DNA of 40,090 nucleotides from Oceanobacillus indicireducens (GTDB lineage: Bacteria; Bacillota; Bacilli; Bacillales; Amphibacillaceae), in the NCBI RefSeq assembly GCF_014647195.1, contig NZ_BMOS01000006.1, positions 107,173-147,262 on the forward strand, read 5' to 3'. Position numbers and translations under genes: made by a program. A model generated the notes under the pieces. It was not told where the DNA came from and made no database searches. It saw only the letters and a program-made list of their open reading frames with translations. Of the stretch, positions 1 through 19,979 are shown in pieces; within the stretch, counting starts at the first letter, position 1; each line of letters starts with the position of its first letter.

Positions 1-42
1 GTATGGATGGGTAAGCCCCCCACTGAATGAGTTTCACTTTAT
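1..42 (+). mobile_element. Right end of an IS200/IS605-type element, cut by window edge
   Basis: The segment with the core CCCCCACTGAATGA and the tail TTTCACTTTAT nearly matches the end of the element at 6704-6843; similarity stops just after TTTAT in both copies. The rest of the element lies left of the window. The border falls on the stop codon of the binding-protein gene, so an insertion probably defined that gene's present 3' end. In IS200/IS605 TnpB elements, the sequence just past this end would be the guide part of the omega RNA. The family assignment is inference. Confidence 0.5.
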
Positions 43-1835
43 TGTAATAATTCTTTGACTTTATCACTATCAGCTTCTAGTTTCAATCCAGTATCAACTA
101 ATGGACTAATAGTAGAAACTGCAGGCATTTTATTACCATGGTAATACTCAATTATATCGTCTTGATTAATAGAATAAAGTACAGCTTGGCGTAATTCTGT
201 ATTTGTAGCTATTTCACGGTCTTTGTCTTCCATATTGAAAGCAAGATAGGTAACGCCATTACTTTCATTTTGCTGAAGTGTTAATTTATCATCCTCTTCA
301 ACAATATCGTATTTGTTTTCCGGAACACCGTTTAAGATATGAATTTCCCCATTCCGCAGCGCTGATAGAGCACTATCAGAGTCTTCTATAAATCTTACAA
401 TAACTTCTGATATGTTAGGCTCATAATCCGTACCAGGCATATACCCCGGATTTTTCACAAAATGGGCTTCATAATCATTTTTATAGGTCATTATATAAGG
501 CCCGCTTGCATAGAGGGTATTCTCTTGATCACTGTCTTCTAGAACAGTAGATTGATCACCGTAAGCAATATCTGTATTCACATCATAATCTTCTACTTCA
601 TACGTATTGATCTTTTCAACTTGCTCTTTAGAGACAATTCCGCCAGATTGATGAGCGAGATAATTAAGAACTTGCGGGAAAGGATTTGTTGTTCTTACTT
701 TCACAACTTGATAAACTCCCGATGAGTTATCAACTTCAGTTTTATCCGACGTTAATGCTTCAATCTCTTGATCAATTCCGTCTTCTAATGCTTCTCGGAT
801 TGTTCTGCCATCAGCTGTATCGCCATCAAGCTCACTTAAATCACTGACAATCGAAATCTCTTCCATATTTTCATGAAGGCTGTATGTCCGATGGTCTGGA
901 ACTGAATTTGGGTTTTTTGCACGTTCTAGCGAGAATACAACATCTTCAGCCCCAACAAGTTCCCCTGTATTTACAGCTGTGCCGTCTTCTACTGCAGCAA
1001 ATTCAATATCGTCACGCAATAAGAAATAATACTCCTCATTTCCCTCTGCAATTGTATGGTTTAAAGACAATGAACCGTCTGAAACAATTTCATCATCATC
1101 AGTTAAATTAACAAGACGCACGTACAGATTCGTATTTAATGTATTGATAGAACCATCGTTTCCTTTAATAGGATCCAATGACGTCAGCGTTCCAATTGCT
1201 TGTTGTAAAATCAGAGGCTCTGTATCCCGCTTAGAAGTATCTGTAAAATCTATGGCCTCCCAAACTGCTGCCCTTGATTTTGGCAGGCGCACAGAAGACT
1301 CATCAATTATTTCGTGATTTACCCCTTGTGCTTTATAAGATGTGTAAAGCGGTACGATATACGCCTGGTCAAATACAATATGCTGCTCTAATTCTTTATA
1401 TGTTTCCACATATTCGTCTGCTAACTCTGTACTTGCTTGATTGATCAACTCATCTGCCCGTTCATCCGCAAACAAGCTGTTATCTCCTTCTGAAGTAAAT
1501 AACGAGCGTACCGCATAATCCGGATTGCCAGTTACTGTCGTCCAGCTGTTTAATGCTAAATCATAATTTCCTGCTTCTTTCTGCGTTGTAAAGCTACCGT
1601 AATCTGGTTGTATATTCAGCTTAACATTGAATCCATTTTTCGTCAGCTGATCACGCAGAATATTTAAATCATCCTCATTTGAACCCATTCCTAAAATTTC
1701 AACCGTATTATCCCCCGAATCTATTTCTCCGCTTCCACCCTCATTTACATCTGACTCCGTATTTAGGCAACCCGTTAAAATGAGCAAAAAAGCGCCTAAC
1801 AAGACATATAATCTTTTCAATGTATTAACCCCCAA
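39..1835 (-). CDS. Peptide ABC transporter substrate-binding lipoprotein, circularly permuted
   Basis: This is a family 5 (OppA/DppA-type) extracellular solute-binding lipoprotein, with a signal peptide and lipobox LTGC (Cys23). The domain order is unusual. Residues about 44-185 match what is normally the last part of the family (DDLNILRDQL, YDLALNSW, IVPLYTS). Residues about 205-540 then match the normal mature N-terminus (TLTSLDP, VFSLERAK, the ASGPYIM region). The chain ends with the middle of the second lobe (LRQAVLYSINQDDI, then KVKELLQ), exactly where the first segment would follow. The TAA stop lies in a mobile-element end, so a few terminal residues may be lost. It is the last gene of an operon with two permeases, 14 bp downstream of the nearer one. 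It probably binds peptides; the substrate is unknown. Confidence 0.85.
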   Translation of the reverse strand: MGVNTLKRLYVLLGAFLLILTGCLNTESDVNEGGSGEIDSGDNTVEILGMGSNEDDLNILRDQLTKNGFNVKLNIQPDYGSFTTQKEAGNYDLALNSWTTVTGNPDYAVRSLFTSEGDNSLFADERADELINQASTELADEYVETYKELEQHIVFDQAYIVPLYTSYKAQGVNHEIIDESSVRLPKSRAAVWEAIDFTDTSKRDTEPLILQQAIGTLTSLDPIKGNDGSINTLNTNLYVRLVNLTDDDEIVSDGSLSLNHTIAEGNEEYYFLLRDDIEFAAVEDGTAVNTGELVGAEDVVFSLERAKNPNSVPDHRTYSLHENMEEISIVSDLSELDGDTADGRTIREALEDGIDQEIEALTSDKTEVDNSSGVYQVVKVRTTNPFPQVLNYLAHQSGGIVSKEQVEKINTYEVEDYDVNTDIAYGDQSTVLEDSDQENTLYASGPYIMTYKNDYEAHFVKNPGYMPGTDYEPNISEVIVRFIEDSDSALSALRNGEIHILNGVPENKYDIVEEDDKLTLQQNESNGVTYLAFNMEDKDREIATNTELRQAVLYSINQDDIIEYYHGNKMPAVSTISPLVDTGLKLEADSDKVKELLQ

Positions 1836-1849
1836 ATTTAGTAAATATA

Positions 1850-3340
1850 TTAATCTAGCTTTGGATCTAATGCATCCCTTAACCCATCACCTAAAAAGTT
1901 AAAGGACAAGACGAGTAAAATTATCGCGATACCCGGAAAAATAGCTAAATAGGGATTTGTCTCCAGATACATGCTTCCTACTTTTAATATATTCCCCCAC
2001 TCTGGAATATGCGGTTCAACCCCTAAGCCGAGGAAGCTCAAACTACTTGTCGCAATCACTGCAGTTCCAATCGTTAAAGATGCCTTCACAATCATAGGAG
2101 CAAAAGAATTAGGAACGACCTGCTTAAAAATAATCTTCCACTCTGATTCTCCTAATGCCTTAGATGCCTCTACAAATTCCAGGTTGGAAACCGATAGCAC
2201 GTTAGCACGCATTGTTCTGGCATAGGTCGGAATCGATCCCACACTTAACGCAATGATTAAATTAGTCGTGCTTGAACCAAATGCTGCAATAATCGCGATA
2301 GCAAGCAGAATACCTGGAACTGCATAAATTACATCCAAAATACGCATTAGTACATTGTCGAGTGTATTTTTATAATATCCGGCCAGAGCTCCTAGGAATC
2401 CGCCAATAACTAACGGAATAATCGTCGTTATGACTCCTACGGTTAATGAAATTCTAGCCCCATAGATAATTCTTGAGAATACATCCCTGCCAAAGTCATC
2501 TGTTCCAAATGGATAGGCTAAACTTGGCTCCATTAGCATGGATGCGTAGTTATTTTCCGTGGCAAATCTGTCTACAAATGTTCCGTAACTTATTACTGAA
2601 ATGGAAAATGTAAAAATAACAAACAATAATCCAAGCATGGCTGTGAAGTTTTTAGTAATACTTAACCAGAATTTATTCCACCTATCAATTTTTGAATCAT
2701 CTCTAATCACTGTTTTTAATAGAATGCTATAACCTAAAACAAAACCAAACAAATTTCCTGTAAACCCGGCTAATAATACCACACCACCTAACCATTTTAA
2801 TTTCGAATAACCACCTTGAATCAAATCAATTTTCCCAAAAATGATTACTGTAATTAAAGAAAATATAATGAAGAGCGCCAAAATACTCATCGATGGTAAA
2901 AATGTATTAGATACATAAGGTTTAAAAATATTGAATAGTGACACAGTAAATATTAAAATGTTCGTCAAGAGCATATAATATGCCAATGTATATTCAATAG
3001 ATTCTTCCTTTCTTAGCACTCTAAAAGCAAATGCAGTGATAAAAACATTTCCAACTGTTATCCCCAGCAACTGAAGGGTACTCAGGACCCTCGTCCTTTT
3101 TTGAATTTCGCCTTTGTCCCGCAAATCTTTCTTTAACAATTGAATAAGTACACCTTGCAAGACTGTTCCAATTAAATAGGCAAGTGTAACAATACTCCAA
3201 GACACACTCCAGAGACCTTCCTGATAATCATACGCATTAAAGAAGCAAACGATTGTCAATGCTAGAGAGAGAACAAAGGCAAAATGAGCATGCTTGTATT
3301 TTTGTGAGTTTTTAAGTATAAAAGTTTTTGGCAATGTCAC
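1850..3340 (-). CDS. Peptide ABC transporter permease, OppC/DppC type, with long membrane N-extension
   Basis: The C-terminal 280 residues or so are a normal DppC/OppC permease: the mature start FAMLGLLFVIF, the PFGTDDFGRDVFSRIIYGAR segment, and an EAA loop (EASKALGESEWKIIFKQVVP) for contact with the ATPase. The protein is 496 aa, against about 300 for the family. The extra 215 N-terminal residues hold about six hydrophobic segments separated by short charged loops and match nothing I recognise. It lies 14 bp after the OppB-type gene and 14 bp before the binding protein, so the three are co-transcribed. It should form half of the membrane channel. The extension may be an accessory membrane domain. 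Confidence 0.88.
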   Translation of the reverse strand: MTLPKTFILKNSQKYKHAHFAFVLSLALTIVCFFNAYDYQEGLWSVSWSIVTLAYLIGTVLQGVLIQLLKKDLRDKGEIQKRTRVLSTLQLLGITVGNVFITAFAFRVLRKEESIEYTLAYYMLLTNILIFTVSLFNIFKPYVSNTFLPSMSILALFIIFSLITVIIFGKIDLIQGGYSKLKWLGGVVLLAGFTGNLFGFVLGYSILLKTVIRDDSKIDRWNKFWLSITKNFTAMLGLLFVIFTFSISVISYGTFVDRFATENNYASMLMEPSLAYPFGTDDFGRDVFSRIIYGARISLTVGVITTIIPLVIGGFLGALAGYYKNTLDNVLMRILDVIYAVPGILLAIAIIAAFGSSTTNLIIALSVGSIPTYARTMRANVLSVSNLEFVEASKALGESEWKIIFKQVVPNSFAPMIVKASLTIGTAVIATSSLSFLGLGVEPHIPEWGNILKVGSMYLETNPYLAIFPGIAIILLVLSFNFLGDGLRDALDPKLD

Positions 3341-3354
3341 TTTTTTCCACCTCG

Positions 3355-4719
3355 TTACGTTTTCTTCATTTCCGAACGGATTCTTGGATCCAGGAAAGCA
3401 TATAAAATATCAACAACTAAATTCACGATCGATATAACAATCGCAATATAGACGACTCCTCCAAGGACAGAAGGAATATCCGGGATGAATTGTTTATCCA
3501 CAATATAACTACCTAACCCACTAATATTGAAGACCTTCTCTGTGACTGCCGCACCCCCAAGCATCCCACCAAACTGAAGACCGATAATTGTTATGATCGG
3601 AATCATCGCATTTCGAAGAGCGTGGTTCATAAAAATACTTCTCGGCAATAGTCCCTTTGACTTTGCTGTCACAATATAGTCCTCACTAATGACCTCTAAA
3701 ATAGATGAACGAGTCATCCGCGCAACGGAAGCAGTCAATCCTGTACCAAGTACAATAACTGGCATGATAATCGAAGCCATATCACCTGGATAATAGGTTG
3801 CAGGTAGTATATTCCACTTTATAGCAAACGTTAAGATGAAAATAAGTCCTTGCCAAAAGTTTGGAATCGATAAACCTATCAAGGCAATAAACATAAAGCT
3901 ATAATCCCAAAATGAATTCCGTTTGGCTGCAGATATTATTCCAAACGGTAAAGCTATAATGACTGACATTAATAGTGACCATGTTGCAATAGTTAGCGTG
4001 ATCGGAAAACGATCACTAATGGTTTTTATGACATTTTCATTTCCGGTATAAGAACTCCCCAAATCAAATGTAAGAATTCCTTTTATTGCATCCCACAGTT
4101 GCACAATGTATGGTTGTTCCAATCCGTATTGTTGATTAAAAGCCTCACGTTGTTCCATTGTTGCTGCTTCTCCCAATATGTTCGCGGCCGTATCCGTTGG
4201 TGAAAAGTGTAAGATGGTAAACACAAAAATAATCACAGAAATAATTACAAAAAGGGTTTGTACGAGTCGTTCCGCAATGTATCGAATCATTGGTCTCGGA
4301 TAAACCAATAACAATAAATACATTAAAATTCCCGGGATGAAAGTAACTATAACGAAAAGTGGTTTTTCAAGACATTTTCCAAAAAAGGTAGCGTAATTTT
4401 CTCTCGTTAGATTTTCAGTAGCTAATTCTTTTTCCGCCATCTCTTGGATCCGTTCATTTGCCAAATTAGCCGCTTCATCGTTCATTTCTTTTTCATTCAC
4501 CGGGCGATGGAAAAATTGTTGTTTATTTTTATATTGTTGTTTATAACGTTCCAACAAATTAAGATATGTAGAAGATTCTTTCTTTATGTTAATTTTCTTT
4601 TGCAGGGCTTGTTCATACTCCTTATTTCTTGCCCCTGTCAAATAAGCAATCCCGGTAAATATATGAATAAGCAAACCTGACAAAAATAGCAAACTACTAA
4701 AGAAAGTACTTTCACTCAA
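3355..4719 (-). CDS. Peptide ABC transporter permease, OppB/DppB type, with N-terminal extension
   Basis: The region from about residue 145 (PMIRYIAERLVQTLF) to the end is a standard OppB/DppB permease, with the conserved GLEQPYIVQLW and FDLGSSY stretches and an EAA loop (TAKSKGLLPRSIFMNHALRN). The first 145 residues are extra: one hydrophobic segment, a Lys/Glu/Gln-rich probable coiled coil, and a second hydrophobic segment. The start is uncertain. The listed start is TTG with no clear ribosome binding site. A GAGGGTG lies six bases before an in-frame CTG at 4764-4762, which would add 15 residues. It is the first gene of the minus-strand operon, divergent from the ATPase. Confidence 0.87.
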   Translation of the reverse strand: MSESTFFSSLLFLSGLLIHIFTGIAYLTGARNKEYEQALQKKINIKKESSTYLNLLERYKQQYKNKQQFFHRPVNEKEMNDEAANLANERIQEMAEKELATENLTRENYATFFGKCLEKPLFVIVTFIPGILMYLLLLVYPRPMIRYIAERLVQTLFVIISVIIFVFTILHFSPTDTAANILGEAATMEQREAFNQQYGLEQPYIVQLWDAIKGILTFDLGSSYTGNENVIKTISDRFPITLTIATWSLLMSVIIALPFGIISAAKRNSFWDYSFMFIALIGLSIPNFWQGLIFILTFAIKWNILPATYYPGDMASIIMPVIVLGTGLTASVARMTRSSILEVISEDYIVTAKSKGLLPRSIFMNHALRNAMIPIITIIGLQFGGMLGGAAVTEKVFNISGLGSYIVDKQFIPDIPSVLGGVVYIAIVISIVNLVVDILYAFLDPRIRSEMKKT

Positions 4720-4853: not shown

Positions 4854-4908
4854 TATATTAAGACTACATAATTTCAATTATAACTATTTAAAAATGAGGG
4901 TAATCATA

Positions 4909-6627
4909 ATGGAGAAAATTTTACAGGTAGATGATTTACACGTTTCCTTTATCACCCAAAATAAAGTAACGGAGGCTGTTAAAGGAATAACATTTGATGT
5001 ACATAAGGGAGAGACTCTAGGAATCGTTGGAGAATCAGGGTCTGGTAAAAGTGTCACTGCCCGTTCAATTATGAAGCTATTGCCATCTCCTCCTTCTTTA
5101 ATGACCGCTGGTAATATTCAATTTTTCGAAAAGCCAATTTCCGAGTATACAGTTCAGCAGATGGACACCATTAGAGGAAATGATATTAGCATGATTTTCC
5201 AAGACCCAATGACTTCCTTGAACCCAACGATAAGGATTGGAAAACAGATTGATGAAACCCTTCGGAAGCACCAAAAATTTTCATCTGCTGAAGCAAAGAA
5301 AAGAACGATTGATATGCTGAAAATGGTTGGCATTACGAATGCAGAGGAACGCTACAATCAATATCCTCATGAATTTTCCGGCGGGATGAGACAACGTGTC
5401 ATGATAGCAATGGCACTCTCCTGTCAGCCAAAGTTACTAATCGCTGACGAACCGACAACAGCACTTGATGTGACAATTCAAGCGCAAATTTTACGTTTAA
5501 TGAAAAGAATGCAACAGCAATTTGACACCTCCATTATATTGATTACACATGACCTTGGGGTTGTCGCTGGAATGTGTGACAGGGTCATCGTTATGAAAGA
5601 TGGAGAAGTTGTGGAGCAAAATACGATTGAAAAAGTATTTTCCGCTCCAAAGCATCCATATACGAAAAAGCTTTTAAATGCATTACCACAAATTAATGCT
5701 AAAAAAGAACCTAAAGGACAAATTACGTTACCTAAAGATATCCAGCCTGATCAACCGCTAATCGAAGTGCAGGATTTAACACAAGAATTTCCCATGGGAG
5801 CAGGTCGCTCAATAAAAGCGGTTGATTCTATTAGCTTTTCGATTCATCCTGGTGAAACACTAGGCTTGGTGGGAGAATCCGGCTCAGGTAAGTCGACTAC
5901 AGGTAGACTTTTATTACAATTACAAAAAGGGATTGGCGGCGATATTTTATACAGGGGCATGTCACTTAATCGAATGAACACGAAAGAAATGAAACAGCTT
6001 CGAAAAGAAATTCAGATTATTTTTCAGGATCCGTATGCTTCTCTCAATCCAAGAATGAAGATATTGGATATTATCGGTCAACCATTGGATATCCATAAAT
6101 TATATAACACAAAAAAAGAACGGAGAGAACGTGTGGAGGATTTATTACAGCTCGTAGGGTTACAAAAGGAACATGCCATGCGTTATCCACATGAGTTCTC
6201 CGGCGGACAGCGACAAAGAATCGGGATTGCCCGTGCACTGGCAGTTGAGCCCAAATTCATTGTATGTGATGAACCCTTATCTGCACTTGATGTATCGATC
6301 CAAGCTCAAATTGTCAGCTTGCTGAAGGATTTACAGAAAAAATTCGGACTTACTTATTTATTTATCGCCCACGACTTGTCAGTTGTTAAACATATAAGTG
6401 ACCGAATAGCAGTCATGAATGCTGGAAAAATTATCGAACTTGCCGAGAGTGAGGAATTATACAGTAATCCTATCCATCCATATACGAAATCACTTTTAGA
6501 CGCTGTCCCTGTTCCGAATCCTGCAATCGAATCGGTTAGATTGAACAGAAATATTGAACGACGCAATTTCCATATTAAGGGGGGTGTTTTAAAAGAAGTA
6601 TCGGACGGACATTGGGTATTACAATAA
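4909..6627 (+). CDS. Fused double ATPase subunit of peptide ABC transporter (OppD-OppF/GsiA type)
   Basis: One polypeptide carries two ABC nucleotide-binding domains. The first has Walker A GESGSGKSVT, signature FSGGMRQRV and Walker B LLIADEPTTALD. The second has Walker A GESGSGKSTT, signature FSGGQRQRI and FIVCDEPLSALD. Each is followed by the oligopeptide-family C-terminal extension (HPYTKKLL, HPYTKSLL). The fusion replaces the usual separate OppD and OppF. An upstream ATG at 4894 gives five more residues, but GAGGG sits between it and the ATG at 4909, so 4909 is the better start. The gene is divergent from the permease operon and very likely powers it. A strong terminator follows. Confidence 0.93.
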   Translation: MEKILQVDDLHVSFITQNKVTEAVKGITFDVHKGETLGIVGESGSGKSVTARSIMKLLPSPPSLMTAGNIQFFEKPISEYTVQQMDTIRGNDISMIFQDPMTSLNPTIRIGKQIDETLRKHQKFSSAEAKKRTIDMLKMVGITNAEERYNQYPHEFSGGMRQRVMIAMALSCQPKLLIADEPTTALDVTIQAQILRLMKRMQQQFDTSIILITHDLGVVAGMCDRVIVMKDGEVVEQNTIEKVFSAPKHPYTKKLLNALPQINAKKEPKGQITLPKDIQPDQPLIEVQDLTQEFPMGAGRSIKAVDSISFSIHPGETLGLVGESGSGKSTTGRLLLQLQKGIGGDILYRGMSLNRMNTKEMKQLRKEIQIIFQDPYASLNPRMKILDIIGQPLDIHKLYNTKKERRERVEDLLQLVGLQKEHAMRYPHEFSGGQRQRIGIARALAVEPKFIVCDEPLSALDVSIQAQIVSLLKDLQKKFGLTYLFIAHDLSVVKHISDRIAVMNAGKIIELAESEELYSNPIHPYTKSLLDAVPVPNPAIESVRLNRNIERRNFHIKGGVLKEVSDGHWVLQ

Positions 6628-6703: not shown

Positions 6704-6843
6704 ATAATACCCCCACCTCTAAACAGGAGGGAAGCCCAACATGTGAAGGTGGGGGATAGATAGTCCGTAAATCCCTGATTCTGTTCAACTAACATTCAGT
6801 GGCGGAGGTAAGGAAACCCCCACTGAATGAAGTTTCACTTTAT
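6704..6843 (+). mobile_element. Solo IS200/IS605-like element or omega-RNA-like remnant
   Basis: About 140 bp without an ORF carry two strong hairpins. CCCCCACCT (6710-6718) pairs with AGGTGGGGG (6747-6755), and CATTCAGTGG (6793-6802) pairs with CCACTGAATG (6820-6829). The end TGAAGTTTCACTTTAT is shared with the element at the left window edge. Subterminal hairpins, no target duplication and a conserved 3' end are what one expects of IS200/IS605 right ends, which include the TnpB omega RNA. No tnpA or tnpB is present, so this is a non-autonomous copy or a remnant. The family name is inference. Confidence 0.55.
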
Positions 6844-6940: not shown

Positions 6941-8782
6941 CTATTTTTTCTGCTTTCCTTGTCTTAATAAGCGTAATCCATTTAAGATTACTAGAATAGT
7001 GGAACCTTCATGGAATAACACTGCCATTGGTAAATTCAATAATCCAAATAAATTCAAGATAACCAAGGCGAGAATCACCCCAATGGAAAAAGCAACGTTC
7101 CCAACAATAATTCGATTTAGTCTGTGACTTAGCTTGAAGCTATAAAATAGTTTGGCTAAGTTATTTTTTACAATAACGACATCGGATGATTCCATTGCAA
7201 CAGATGAACCGCTTCCCATCGCGATACCAATATCTGCATTCGCAAGTGCTGGCGCATCGTTGATCCCATCCCCAATCATTCCGACAATCTTACCTGCTTG
7301 CTGGCTCTCATGAATGTATTTAATTTTGTCTTCCGGTAGACACGATGCAACATAATCAACTCCACCAACTTCATCTGCGACTTTCTTCGCAACCGTTTCG
7401 TTATCTCCTGTAAGCAAGGCAACACGGATCCCTTCCTTTTGGAATCCCGCCACCGCTTCGGCAGATTCTTTCCGCACGCGATCAGCAAGAGAGAAGTAGC
7501 CGACGATTTTGTTATTTTTTCCTACAAAAATATTCGTATTTCCGTCAATCGCTTTCTTCCGGTAATTATGAATATCTTCATACTGATCAAATACAGAAGG
7601 CTTTCCGATTTGAATTTCACCTTTTTTCATTCCGGAACCAGCTACTTCTTCAACCGGTTCATTCCGATCAATCTGGTCTAAATCCAAATAATTGAACGTG
7701 TCTACAATCGCTCTTGCAATCGGGTGACTGGACTGTTGCTCCATATATACGACTTCACTTAATGTATCCTCTTGTGCTGCATAATCAACAACTTCAAATT
7801 CGCCATGTGTAAGCGTACCAGTTTTATCACTATAGAGCACATCCATCGTGCTCAGTGCTTCCATTGCCGCTCCACCTTTAAATAACACACCATTCCTTGC
7901 CCCATTACTGATCGCACTGAGGGTAGCCGGAGTGGCGGATGCTACAAGTGCACATGGACTTGCTACCGTCAACATAACCATCCCACGATAAAATGCTTCT
8001 TGGAAGGTAAAATCATTAAATGCGTAAAGGATAAAAATAAAAATTGGAACCCCAACCAACACACTGATCACATATTTCGATTCAATCCGGTCAATAAATT
8101 TGGATACATTAGACGGCCGATTTTGTGCTTCTTCAACCATCCGTATAATATTGGAAAATACTGTCTCATTACTTAATTTGTTCACTTCAAGATGAAAAGC
8201 ATGACCTTCATTAATTGTTCCTGCAAATACTTCATCTCCTTTTTCTTTACTAACAGGAACAGATTCTCCAGTCAACGCAGCTTCGTTCACCATTGTTTGC
8301 CGGTCCGTGATGCCATCAATGGGAATAAGCTCTCCTTTTGATACAACAACCATATCTCCTATGTTTAAATCGTCTGTCGGAATCTCAACAACTTCCCCAT
8401 TATCTCTTAAAACTTGCGCAGTTGATGGAACTTGTGACATAAGCTCGGAAATAGCATTGGTCGATTTAGCTGATGCATAATCTTCAAGCGCCTCTGCTCC
8501 GGCGAAAATGAGTAAAAGAATCGCTCCTTCCGATTCATAATTAATAAGAACCGCACCAAGCGCAGCTAAAATCATAAGTAAGTCAACATTGGGAGATTTC
8601 GATTGAATGGTATCTACTACTGCACTTTTCGCAGCAAAGAATCCTAAAAAGAATATCGCTGCATAAAATGATAGTCGACTCACGATTTCAATAAACGGCG
8701 CGAATATAAATCCAAGAATAATAAAGAAAATACCAACGAGAAGAAACTGGCCAGGACGGCTTTTGATTAGATAGTTGAACAT
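6941..8782 (-). CDS. pfeT: P1B-4 metal-exporting P-type ATPase, PfeT/ZosA-like
   Basis: This 613-aa P-type ATPase has the actuator motif ALTGES, phosphorylation motif SDKTGTLTHG and hinge GDGINDAPAL. The transmembrane metal-site motif is SPC (TVASPCALV), and the last membrane segment has HEGSTILVILNGLRLL. SPC plus HEGxT defines the P1B-4 subgroup, which in Bacillus includes the Fe(II) exporter PfeT (earlier ZosA/YkvW). It has no N-terminal metal-binding domain, as is usual for this group. AAAGGA precedes the ATG by eight bases. A PerR-type box lies about 60 bp upstream, as expected for a PerR-controlled iron exporter. The likely role is Fe(II) (perhaps Zn or Co) efflux under peroxide or iron stress. 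Confidence 0.85.
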   Translation of the reverse strand: MFNYLIKSRPGQFLLVGIFFIILGFIFAPFIEIVSRLSFYAAIFFLGFFAAKSAVVDTIQSKSPNVDLLMILAALGAVLINYESEGAILLLIFAGAEALEDYASAKSTNAISELMSQVPSTAQVLRDNGEVVEIPTDDLNIGDMVVVSKGELIPIDGITDRQTMVNEAALTGESVPVSKEKGDEVFAGTINEGHAFHLEVNKLSNETVFSNIIRMVEEAQNRPSNVSKFIDRIESKYVISVLVGVPIFIFILYAFNDFTFQEAFYRGMVMLTVASPCALVASATPATLSAISNGARNGVLFKGGAAMEALSTMDVLYSDKTGTLTHGEFEVVDYAAQEDTLSEVVYMEQQSSHPIARAIVDTFNYLDLDQIDRNEPVEEVAGSGMKKGEIQIGKPSVFDQYEDIHNYRKKAIDGNTNIFVGKNNKIVGYFSLADRVRKESAEAVAGFQKEGIRVALLTGDNETVAKKVADEVGGVDYVASCLPEDKIKYIHESQQAGKIVGMIGDGINDAPALANADIGIAMGSGSSVAMESSDVVIVKNNLAKLFYSFKLSHRLNRIIVGNVAFSIGVILALVILNLFGLLNLPMAVLFHEGSTILVILNGLRLLRQGKQKK

Positions 8783-9284: not shown

Positions 9285-11183
9285 TTAAACAAGTTTTGCT
9301 TTAAGACTTTCTTTGACTTCTTGATTCTTCTTGTTGAAACGGATTAGTCGCATCGCATTTAAAATTACCGCAAGTACGCTTGCTTCATGGATGAACATTC
9401 CTGACGCTAGATTGATTACTCCTGCAAGTACTCCTATTAAGAGAAGGAACACGACTCCGACAGCAAGGAATGTGTTTTGCTTCATATTACGAATTGTCGC
9501 TTTTGATAAAGAATAAGCGTGGGAGTACTGCGACAATTTATCTGCCATCAAGACGACATCTGCTGTTTCCATTGATATATCCGTCCCTCCTTCTCCCATC
9601 GCAAGCCCGATATCTGCAGTAGCAATCGCCGGTGCGTCGTTGATTCCGTCCCCGGCCATGGCGACAACGTGACCGGATTCCTTCAACTTTTTCACATACT
9701 TTACTTTGTCTTCTGGTAACAATTCTGCATAAAACACATCAATGCCCAACTCGTTGGAGACAAGTTCTGCTGCATGTTTGTTGTCACCCGTCAGCATGAT
9801 AATTTTCTTCACACCATTACGTCTCATTTCAGCTAGTGCAGCTTTAGCATCCTCTCTAATCTGGTCTGCAATGGAGAATATTCCTGCTATCGCACCATCG
9901 ATGCTTACGAAAATAGCGGTATTTCCTGCCTTTTCTTGGTTAATTTGATAAATTGCCACTTCTTCTGGTATGTGGATTCCTTCTGCATTCATCAATTTAC
10001 GATTACCAATTGCAAGCCCATAATCGCCAACGGTAGCTTTGATTCCGCCCCCTTTAATGACTTCACTACTTTCCGGCTCTCTTGTTAATTCAAGATTTCT
10101 TGCTTGAGCCTCCTTCACAATCGTTTGACCCAAGTGATGTTCAGAGATTGTTTCCGCTTCAGCTACAAGCTGTAATAATGTCACTTCATCATAATTACCG
10201 AACGTTTTAATATCCGTAACTTCCGGCTTTCCTTTCGTTAGTGTACCCGTTTTATCAAAGACAAGGGTGTCTACTTTGGAGAGGTTATCCATCATTTCTC
10301 CACCTTTTACGAGAACGCCGTTTCTTGCACCATTACCAATCCCCGCTACGCTCGATACCGGGGCACCGATTACGAGGGCACCAGGACAAGCGACAACTAA
10401 GAATGTAATCGCGATATGCAGATCCCTTGTTATCAGGTAAACGAGTATCGATAAAACAACAACTGCCGGTGTATAAATATTGGCGAATCTATCCAAGAAT
10501 TTTTGTGTTTTTGATTTGGACTCCTGAGCTTCTTCAACTAACTCAATGATTTTCGCAAACGTCGTGTCATCCCCGACTCGTTCCGCAATCATTTCAATAT
10601 ATCCATTATCAACAATCGTTCCACTGAACACTTGATCATCGTTACGCTTTGATACCGGTACAGATTCCCCGGTGACTGCAGCTTCATTCAGAAAGGCTTG
10701 CCCAGAAACGACCTTTCCGTCTACTGGCACTTTTCCCCCGGAACGAATGATGATGCGATCACCTGCCACGACATTTTCCACTGGAATTGTCTCTGTCTCG
10801 CCGTTACGGATAACCGTTGCTTCCTGTGGTGCCATATCGACAAGGTCTTTCAATGAGCGGCGGGTCTTCTCCAGTGTACGTGTTTCCAAGTAATCCCCGA
10901 ATAAAAATAAGAACGTCACGACAGCTGACTCAACAAACTCACCAATGAATAGAGCGCCGATGACGGCAATCGTGACAAGAAGTTCAATGCTGAACACCCG
11001 CATTCTTACGGCCTGGTACGCTTTAATGAAAATTGGAATTCCTGCTAAAACTGTAGCGAACACTAAGATTGCTTGCCTCAGCTCGTAGGGACCAAAATAA
11101 TGAATAATAAGCGCGAGAATTAACGATGCTCCTGATAGAAACGTAATTTGTTTTTTAGCTTTATTAATCCAGCGTATAAACAT
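9285..11183 (-). CDS. Heavy-metal P1B-type ATPase with a CPG metal motif
   Basis: A heavy-metal P-type ATPase of about 632 aa without an N-terminal HMA domain. Visible motifs are AVTGES, FDKTGTLTKG, the SEHHLGQ histidine motif and GDGINDAPAI. The membrane metal motif is VVACPGALVIG, CPG instead of CPC, confirmed from the codons TGT CCT GGT. The last membrane segment reads FIHEASVLAVILNAMRL, unlike the P1B-1 or P1B-2 patterns. Its metal is therefore hard to predict. The separate HMA protein may supply the missing metal-binding domain. GGAGAG is best spaced for the ATG at 11183; an ATG two codons upstream (11189) sits almost on it. Confidence 0.85.
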   Translation of the reverse strand: MFIRWINKAKKQITFLSGASLILALIIHYFGPYELRQAILVFATVLAGIPIFIKAYQAVRMRVFSIELLVTIAVIGALFIGEFVESAVVTFLFLFGDYLETRTLEKTRRSLKDLVDMAPQEATVIRNGETETIPVENVVAGDRIIIRSGGKVPVDGKVVSGQAFLNEAAVTGESVPVSKRNDDQVFSGTIVDNGYIEMIAERVGDDTTFAKIIELVEEAQESKSKTQKFLDRFANIYTPAVVVLSILVYLITRDLHIAITFLVVACPGALVIGAPVSSVAGIGNGARNGVLVKGGEMMDNLSKVDTLVFDKTGTLTKGKPEVTDIKTFGNYDEVTLLQLVAEAETISEHHLGQTIVKEAQARNLELTREPESSEVIKGGGIKATVGDYGLAIGNRKLMNAEGIHIPEEVAIYQINQEKAGNTAIFVSIDGAIAGIFSIADQIREDAKAALAEMRRNGVKKIIMLTGDNKHAAELVSNELGIDVFYAELLPEDKVKYVKKLKESGHVVAMAGDGINDAPAIATADIGLAMGEGGTDISMETADVVLMADKLSQYSHAYSLSKATIRNMKQNTFLAVGVVFLLLIGVLAGVINLASGMFIHEASVLAVILNAMRLIRFNKKNQEVKESLKAKLV

Positions 11184-11233
11184 CTTCATCTCTCCTTTTT
11201 GGTATATTTAGTATTGCGTTATCTTCTGCCTTT

Positions 11234-18712: not shown

Positions 18713-18742
18713 AAAAATTATCAAAATTAAATATGTAATTTT

Positions 18743-18841
18743 CTTATCTAGAGAGGTGGAGGGACTGGCCCTTTGATACCTCGGCAACAGACTTTTTGAA
18801 GCACTGTGCCAATTCCAGTAGCGTTAAGCTTGAAGATAAGA
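18743..18841 (+). ncRNA. SAM-I (S-box) riboswitch
   Basis: The conserved S-box core is present: CTTATC and GATAAG as the closing P1 stem, AGAGGTGGAGGGACTGGCCC, CTCGGCAACAG, GTGCCAATTCCAG and TTGAAGATAAG. It lies upstream of a homocysteine methyltransferase-like gene and directly before a terminator hairpin. By family knowledge, SAM binding favours the terminator and shuts the gene off when methionine/SAM is plentiful. Confidence 0.95.
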
Positions 18842-18864
18842 AGAGAAACTAGTAATGCGATTTA

Positions 18865-18895
18865 AACCTCTTCTTATATTAAGAAGGGGTTTTTA
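18865..18895 (+). terminator. Regulated terminator of the SAM riboswitch
   Basis: AACCTCTTCTTA pairs with TAAGAAGGGGTT, followed by TTTTATTATT. It lies between the S-box aptamer and the start codon, as expected for transcription attenuation. Confidence 0.8.
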
Positions 18896-18929
18896 TTATT
18901 TTATTACATATAAAACAGGAGGAGAAGAA

Positions 18930-19979
18930 ATGAAACGTACTCTAGAACAAAGGTTAAAAGAAGGAACAGTTATTGTTGGAGAAGGGTATTTGTTTGAATT
19001 GGAACGAAGGGGTTATTTACAAGCAGGGTCATTTGTACCGGAAGTGGCACTAGAAAACCCAGAAGCACTTAAACAAACCTATAGAGATTTTATGAATGCT
19101 GGATCTGATGTGATCTTAGCGTTTACGTATAATGGTCATCGAGAGAAGCTTCGCATTATTGGTAAAGAAGATTTATTAGAGCCGCTAAATCGGAGTGCAA
19201 TTCGGTTGGCAAAAGAAGTAGCCAAGGAACACCCGACAGAGGAAGCACTTGTTGCGGGAAATATTTCGAATACAAATATTTTTGATCCAAATAATCCAGC
19301 TTCCAAGGAAGAAGTGAGAAGTATTTTTGCAGAAATGGTGAAATGGTGTAAGGAAGAGGGCGTTGACTACATTGTTGGTGAAACATTTTATTATCATGAA
19401 GAAGCATTAATCGCCTTGGAAGAAATTCAAAAACAAGGTTTACCTGCAGTGATTACGTTAGCCTTATTTGCGGAGAACATTTTAAGAGATGGATATACGG
19501 CAGATGAATCATGTAAAATCCTTTCTGAAAAGGGGGCATTAGTAGTTGGTCTGAACTGCTTCCGCGGACCTGATACAATGCATTCATACTTAGTGGACAT
19601 CCGAAAAAATGTAGATGGCTATGTGGGCGCTCTACCACTTCCATATCGGACAACGGAAGAAAATCCGACATTCTTTAATTTGCCTGATGCCGGATGCAAT
19701 TGCACATTGCCTACGGAAACAACTTTCCCGACTGCACTTGATCCGCTTTACCATAATCGTTTCGAATTAGCGGAATGGGCAAAAGAGGCAAAAGAAATTG
19801 GTATTAATTATATCGGCTTATGTTGCGGTGCTTCACCTGCAATGCTAAGAGAAGTTGCAGAAGCTGTCGGAGTTGAAACAATAAATTCAAAATTCTCCCC
19901 GAACATGGAGAAACACTTTTTATTTGGTAATGATGAAACACTTAAAAAGCACAACACGGAATATCGTACAAAGGCATAA
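18930..19979 (+). CDS. Homocysteine S-methyltransferase, betaine-homocysteine methyltransferase-like
   Basis: A 349-aa methyltransferase related to BHMT. The N-terminus VIVGEGYLFELERRGYLQAG and the ENPEAL..YRDFMNAGSDV region follow the BHMT pattern. The three zinc cysteines are visible in GLNCFRG and GLCCGAS. It lacks the MTHFR half of YitJ and the folate/cobalamin domains of MetH, so betaine or S-methylmethionine is the likely methyl donor, consistent with betaine use in a halotolerant host. The frame is open from 18855, but that lies in the riboswitch expression platform; GGAGGAG seven bases upstream sets the start at 18930. SAM-I control places it in methionine synthesis. Confidence 0.85.
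   Translation: MKRTLEQRLKEGTVIVGEGYLFELERRGYLQAGSFVPEVALENPEALKQTYRDFMNAGSDVILAFTYNGHREKLRIIGKEDLLEPLNRSAIRLAKEVAKEHPTEEALVAGNISNTNIFDPNNPASKEEVRSIFAEMVKWCKEEGVDYIVGETFYYHEEALIALEEIQKQGLPAVITLALFAENILRDGYTADESCKILSEKGALVVGLNCFRGPDTMHSYLVDIRKNVDGYVGALPLPYRTTEENPTFFNLPDAGCNCTLPTETTFPTALDPLYHNRFELAEWAKEAKEIGINYIGLCCGASPAMLREVAEAVGVETINSKFSPNMEKHFLFGNDETLKKHNTEYRTKA

Follow-up and report, generated by a model that had tools for sequence, protein, structure and literature searches.

Evidence for a conserved, natural circular permutation in the family 5 solute-binding lipoprotein of a four-gene ABC importer from Bacillales

Can the chain of a large bacterial solute-binding protein (SBP) be rotated in nature, so that the segment that normally ends it comes first? 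This question is raised by a gene at the edge of a 40,090-nucleotide stretch of Oceanobacillus indicireducens DNA (contig NZ_BMOS01000006.1, positions 107,173 to 147,262; the window), for which an earlier note had proposed a circularly permuted family 5 binding lipoprotein. The open reading frame (ORF) lies on the minus strand and uses a TTG start, and the plus strand over 39..1835 carries stops throughout. We found the permutation interpretation to be supported: with a probability of about 0.86, the gene encodes a natural, fixed circular permutation of the family 5 (cluster C, type II) fold that serves as the lipid-anchored SBP of a four-gene ATP-binding cassette (ABC) importer of the peptide/nickel family (Table 1). 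The order of the parts, their conservation, the grouping of the permuted proteins, the cassette and the co-occurrence with an extension of the OppC-type permease are directly established.

Table 1. Features of the permuted SBP gene and its importer cassette in the window (HMM, hidden Markov model; pLDDT, predicted local distance difference test)
Feature	Position	Strand	Basis
Circularly permuted family 5 solute-binding lipoprotein, 598 aa, putatively GisD-like	39..1835	-	ORF, HMM order, AlphaFold model
Lipoprotein signal peptide and lipobox, residues 1-23, LTGC23	1767..1835	-	alignment
Low-confidence tether/linker, residues 24-40	1716..1766	-	pLDDT <50 at residues 13-40; orthologue lengths vary
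C-part, residues 41-204: canonical SBP5 end segment, placed first	1224..1715	-	
N-part, residues 205-598: canonical mature N-terminus up to helix K-V-K-E-L-L, placed last	42..1223	-	
OppC-type permease, 496 aa	1850..3340	-	PF00528 at residues 313-495; longer permease models begin at 214-229
OppC N-terminal extension, about 210 residues, 6 hydrophobic segments	about 2705-3340	-	simple hydropathy scan
OppB-type permease, 454 aa	3355..4719	-	PF19300 at 144-245, PF00528 at 256-448
OppB N-terminal extension, about 143 residues, 2 hydrophobic segments	about 4291-4719	-	simple hydropathy scan
Fused two-domain ATPase (OppD-OppF type), 577 aa, divergent	4894..6627	+	YejF and GsiA models over most of the length, below cut-offs

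The proposal rested on a lipobox followed by the canonical C-terminal segment and then by the canonical N-terminus, and all of its landmarks were located: the lipobox (L-T-G-C23), DDLNILRDQL (residues 55-64), IVPLYTS, TLTSLDP (residues 216-222), VFSLERAK and the chain end KVKELLQ. A canonical HMM of 522 positions, built from 15 canonical family 5 SBPs of related genomes, matched the window protein with model positions 379-502 at residues 56-176 (46.8 bits) and then 53-355 at residues 216-597 (128 bits). Alignment to PF00496 (SBP_bac_5), the sole Pfam family matched, likewise gave two swapped pieces, with model positions 301-367 in the 5' part of the gene (28.1 bits, alone below the cut-off) and 11-274 in the 3' part (117.8 bits), for a total of 140.5 bits against a cut-off of 32.4. 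Among 13 genomes searched, the PF00496 pieces were swapped in three permuted genes; a fourth gene with two pieces (G001:C125) had them in normal order. No close relative of the permuted SBP was found in the PDB. The permuted-family profile aligned to PDB chain 5u4o in swapped fashion, positions 442-578 falling at chain residues 199-333 and 55-162 at 379-490. The swapped order in the window protein is real, and the observation is confirmed.

We further asked for orthologues with the same order. A one-per-species genome search returned 227 loci encoding relatives, and the best 80 of these, all matching from query residue 1-22 to 597-598, were retained for locus analyses; they come from Oceanobacillus, Lysinibacillus, Sporosarcina, Psychrobacillus, Paenibacillus, Brevibacillus, Bacillus and other genera. 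We tested 53 proteins, made up of the 50 rows of alignment A2 (48 of the 80 retained loci, the window and L017) and three distant members (L152-L154). With the canonical HMM and alignment-column boundaries, the C-part preceded the N-part in all 53, breaking the linear N-to-C order of the SBP_bac_5 fold in each; the count without such boundaries was 47, a signal-peptide match probably being scored as N-part in the others. Chance is very unlikely as the cause of an order that is identical in 53 of 53 proteins. All 50 members of A2 match SBP_bac_5 at E <= 0.001. When the sequences were rotated in silico, every one gave a single best match running from model position 45-55 to 493-504 of 522 and scored higher than before (mean, 109.8 to 151.7 bits); 14 of the 53 lack the join motif used in the first rotation. 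When the 15 canonical proteins, the same ones that built the HMM, were artificially permuted, their best-domain score fell from a mean of 778 bits to 513 bits, and each protein was split into 2-3 domains.

The AlphaFold model of the window protein is confident (pLDDT 85). Foldseek on the whole model gave template-modelling scores of about 0.3-0.5, and because its alignments follow chain order and span residues 198-598 only, the first segment was modelled and searched alone. Residues ~206-598 aligned to DppA 1-336 and the first segment to DppA 342-472; 1dpp and 3m8u were matched by both parts and 1uqw by the N-part. The two halves cover complementary stretches of DppA, the match of the first segment being weak, as is its model when taken alone. 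In the permuted chain, a short linker near residue 200 connects the old C-terminus to the old mature N-terminus, and the new ends lie at the point, about DppA 337-342, at which a canonical chain leaves the K-x-K-x-L-L helix for the following beta-strand. The permuted SBP would be expected to fold as a normal two-lobed flytrap that holds a small ligand in its cleft and delivers it to the permeases. Judged by the OppA domain boundaries, the lipid tether would now sit on the lobe opposite to the usual one. The 53 proteins each contain one Cys, which the alignment places at the lipobox.

Full-length copies were found in 8 of 58 genomes, the window's own included, the other seven being 62-81% identical in the search and 61-80% in the alignment. 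Of 398 genomes sampled from the class, 35 (in 12 of 145 genera) had a match at E <= 1e-20, and 34 of these were full length; the remaining locus (L155, genome G406) holds a 215-residue remnant covering positions 381-600 only, lacks the OppC extension and is decaying. A form at least 65% identical to L152 occurs in 9 of 61 genomes (2.0-3.2 Mb) of one genus. Part-by-part comparisons of six pairs gave dN/dS values of 0.035-0.067 in 8 of 12 cases, with dS near saturation in two of the 8 and saturated in the other 4, and the gene is under purifying selection. A tree placed 15 sampled permuted proteins on one side of a single branch (100/100) and 33 canonical SBPs on the other; the attachment point of the permuted group is unsure owing to a long-branch warning. 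No intermediate between the canonical and permuted orders was found. A four-gene cassette of the same layout, with an annotated coding sequence, lies on a 362 kb Metabacillus plasmid (L198, NZ_OK052578.1), so the cassette may travel. Another contig, labelled Arthrobacter beigongshangensis (L073), has 38.5% G+C and a Sporosarcina-like cassette, and is probably mislabelled or contaminating DNA.

The permuted SBP is embedded in a conserved cassette. The divergent ATPase, the long OppB, the long OppC and the permuted SBP occur together in 79 of the 80 loci (the L075 locus begins about 830 bases before the SBP). The place and orientation of the fused ATPase are also kept in 79 of 80, and it is split into two ORFs in L085. 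No further gene family was shared by more than 11 of the 80 loci under the clustering thresholds applied. A profile of the OppC extension (A3, E <= 1e-5) identified 34 of the 398 class-sample genomes, namely every genome that carries the permuted SBP at full length, and did not match any of the 363 that lack it; in these genomes neither feature was seen without the other. Searched across the phylum, the window's own extension was found in 2 of 299 genomes (its own and G084), both carriers of the permuted SBP. The two features share a cassette, and this linkage accounts for some of the co-occurrence. Counts of operator consensus motifs in real and shuffled versions of the 80 ATPase-OppB intergenic stretches (CodY box 6 vs 5, generic AT palindrome 15 vs 9, CymR box 12 vs 16, Fur-like 17 vs 17) gave no usable signal.

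We then considered which transporter this cassette resembles. The proteins of the L152-L154 loci are homologous to those of the window and include SBPs of the same permuted order, and their cassette layout runs on into a gamma-glutamyltransferase (ggt) gene (TIGR00066, 501-507 bits; cut-off 358). Identity between the window and L152 is 41% for the SBP, 45% for OppC (residues 108-496), 46% for OppB and 50% for the ATPase; the window SBP is 40-41% identical to the SBPs of all three. In the Staphylococcus aureus gisA and gisBCD-ggt layout, as described in the available text of PMC10355420, a divergent ATPase gene faces those for two permeases and a lipidated SBP, followed by ggt. The window cassette matches the GisABCD part of this layout, with a divergent ATPase, two permeases and a lipidated SBP. 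As distant permuted members adjoin gamma-glutamyltransferase in the published arrangement, GisD appears to be permuted as well; layout, homology and a record named S. aureus (L197, NZ_CP077929.1) indicate that S. aureus GisD is probably circularly permuted. No word starting with 'permut' occurs in the main text of PMC10355420. In the L197 record, two inverted copies of the ATPase gene flank two inverted copies of SBP residues 1-224/225 (81% and 68% identical to L152), and the moved segment again stands at the start of the chain. It is a linear 30.5 kb record called a plasmid, with inverted, incomplete gis-type genes and one ATPase accession annotated twice in opposite directions, and has the appearance of an assembly artefact. 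R-G-D is present in each of the L152-L154 proteins, which fits the label 'RGD-containing lipoprotein'; the phrase occurs in S. aureus papers and is not tied here to this gene.

Homology to gis-layout loci makes the window SBP GisD-like, and our best guess for its ligand, at about even odds, would be glutathione, its oxidized form (GSSG) or a similar gamma-glutamyl or thiol peptide. The homologous locus of the same layout is a glutathione importer by genetics: according to the available text of PMC10355420, mutants in the S. aureus system grow more poorly when reduced glutathione (GSH) or GSSG is the only source of sulfur, and a delta-gis mutant has reduced GSSG uptake. Gis is treated as glutathione-specific in the accessible part of PMC12510641 too. 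Several observations weigh against such a ligand and favor an importer for another peptide, an opine or a metal chelate, which we rate slightly below even chances. Unlike in the gis-layout loci, no ggt was found near the window cassette, and TIGR00066 found no Ggt in the whole genome of the window, the same search being positive in 8 of 14 control genomes; a ggt was not found in any ORF of the 80 wider loci either. A survey starting from Ggt found complete GisABCD-Ggt only in S. aureus relatives (PMC10355420, available text), and we found the four-gene core without ggt to be common in Bacillales. Moreover, DppA uses R383 and D436 for its dipeptide, D436 binding the amino group (PMC12136057, available text). 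By alignment, D436 (mature 408) lies three residues after the Trp of WTGD; the D436R chain 8z1z shows R at this position, whereas Val occupies it in the 53 permuted proteins (WTTVTGNPDY or WTTVFGDPNY), so the ligand is probably held in some other way than the dipeptide in DppA. Ggt was present in 29 of 35 carriers of the permuted SBP (counted by eye) versus 215 of 363 other genomes; these counts are not independent of phylogeny and were not used as proof of substrate. Compared with gis-layout loci, the window's OppC extension is also longer (about 210 vs about 105 residues).

How might the permuted order have arisen? A single origin is probable, in which two tandem SBP genes, or copies of one, would have fused and then lost both outer parts; since canonical SBP genes do occur in tandem in the same genus (L156), the simplest path is that neighbours fused in frame and their outer parts were then lost. 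It is possible, though unlikely, that the C-part and N-part came from two different neighbouring paralogues, making the permutation a recombination as well. The affinities of the C-part and N-part showed no correlation over 33 canonical SBPs (rho -0.14, or -0.34 over the first 29), versus 0.80-0.85 in three canonical subfamilies, and the N-part was closest to DppA-like proteins and the C-part to proteins with W-G-T-V-T or W-V-T-G-T-G. However, this contrast may stem from distance, as there were only three distance-matched controls, with rho of 0.19, 0.47 and 0.50, and the values for single permuted sequences lay between -0.68 and 0.22.

The same tandem genes could serve as raw material for a duplication, that is, a fused pair that keeps, or has recently lost, its second C-part. 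This is most improbable: a second C-part behind the N-part was found in 0 of 53 proteins, in agreement with the earlier note that no part is clearly duplicated, and the ends of the aligned orthologues nearly coincide. Duplication is refuted for the present-day proteins examined and survives only as an evolutionary route. Equally hard to credit is the reading in which the first segment does not belong to the same fold and was added as an accessory domain ahead of a truncated SBP. The first segment modelled alone gives mixed helices and strands of low confidence with weak matches, but it is confident only within the whole protein, it matches the model positions missing from the N-part, and rotated sequences match as one domain. 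An annotation, assembly or pseudogene artefact, suggested by a window edge 38 bases beyond the stop codon and adjoining an assembly run of N, has a negligible chance and is already refuted by purifying selection and by intact copies in other genomes and contigs, including the plasmid locus. Nor is the gene cut off, since seven aligned orthologues end within 3-6 residues of the window protein.

The permuted SBP is accordingly a conserved protein of ordinary function class and unusual topology. Escherichia coli DppA and GsiB (YliB) and Haemophilus parasuis GbpA are cluster C SBPs of the fold that it matches in two pieces, but with canonical order. Canonical paralogues of the same genera (e.g., L028 and L033) have a W-T-T-V-T-G stretch in common with the permuted family; they are 530-551 residues long, have canonical order and lie on the other side of the 100/100 branch. 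Its nearest precedent is Treponema pallidum TpMglB-2 (Tp0684; 'type Ic / cluster Bc'), also a natural circular permutation of a lipidated SBP and of a kind common to a family of Gram-positive and spirochaete proteins, whose authors raise a possible adaptation to membrane anchoring (PMC4990184, available text). TpMglB-2 has the sugar-binding cluster B (type I) fold with canonical N-terminal strands moved to the end; by contrast, the window family is of cluster C, with about 160 residues moved from back to front, and by sequence its Pfam matches place it outside the cluster B fold. It would be the cluster C counterpart of TpMglB-2.

Other features of the window were also recorded. A short repeat at 11-42, starting at the SBP stop codon, has at least 40 other sites in the genome (41 matches listed, its own included, with 40 of 172 candidates scored), and a related pattern has a perfect match at 6818-6838 on the minus strand; it is an interspersed repeat of unknown kind. 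Two adjoining heavy-metal P-type ATPase genes lie at 6941-8782 and 9285-11189 (minus strand). The only Rfam match in the window, away from the cassette, is an S-adenosylmethionine (SAM) riboswitch (RF00162, 88 bits) at 18741-18842, directly upstream of a plus-strand ORF at 18855-19979.

The earlier note held such permutations of large binding proteins to be rare, and they do seem seldom reported: in the open-licence literature searched, we found no report of a permuted cluster C (family 5) SBP and recognised TpMglB-2, of another fold cluster, as the only natural permuted SBP. Domain models tied to linear order align permuted SBPs piecewise only. More tentatively, with the odds somewhat against it, there may be a whole permuted class of cluster C ('cluster Cc') including S. 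aureus GisD, in which a tether on the opposite lobe co-evolved with the extra N-terminal transmembrane helices of both permeases to give a docking and delivery geometry unseen in Opp/Dpp importers, and whose halves may derive from two paralogues. As the family is conserved, widespread and, through GisD, probably already functionally characterised, the effect of the permutation on tethering, docking and secretion is open to direct study, with canonical relatives in the same genomes as natural controls.
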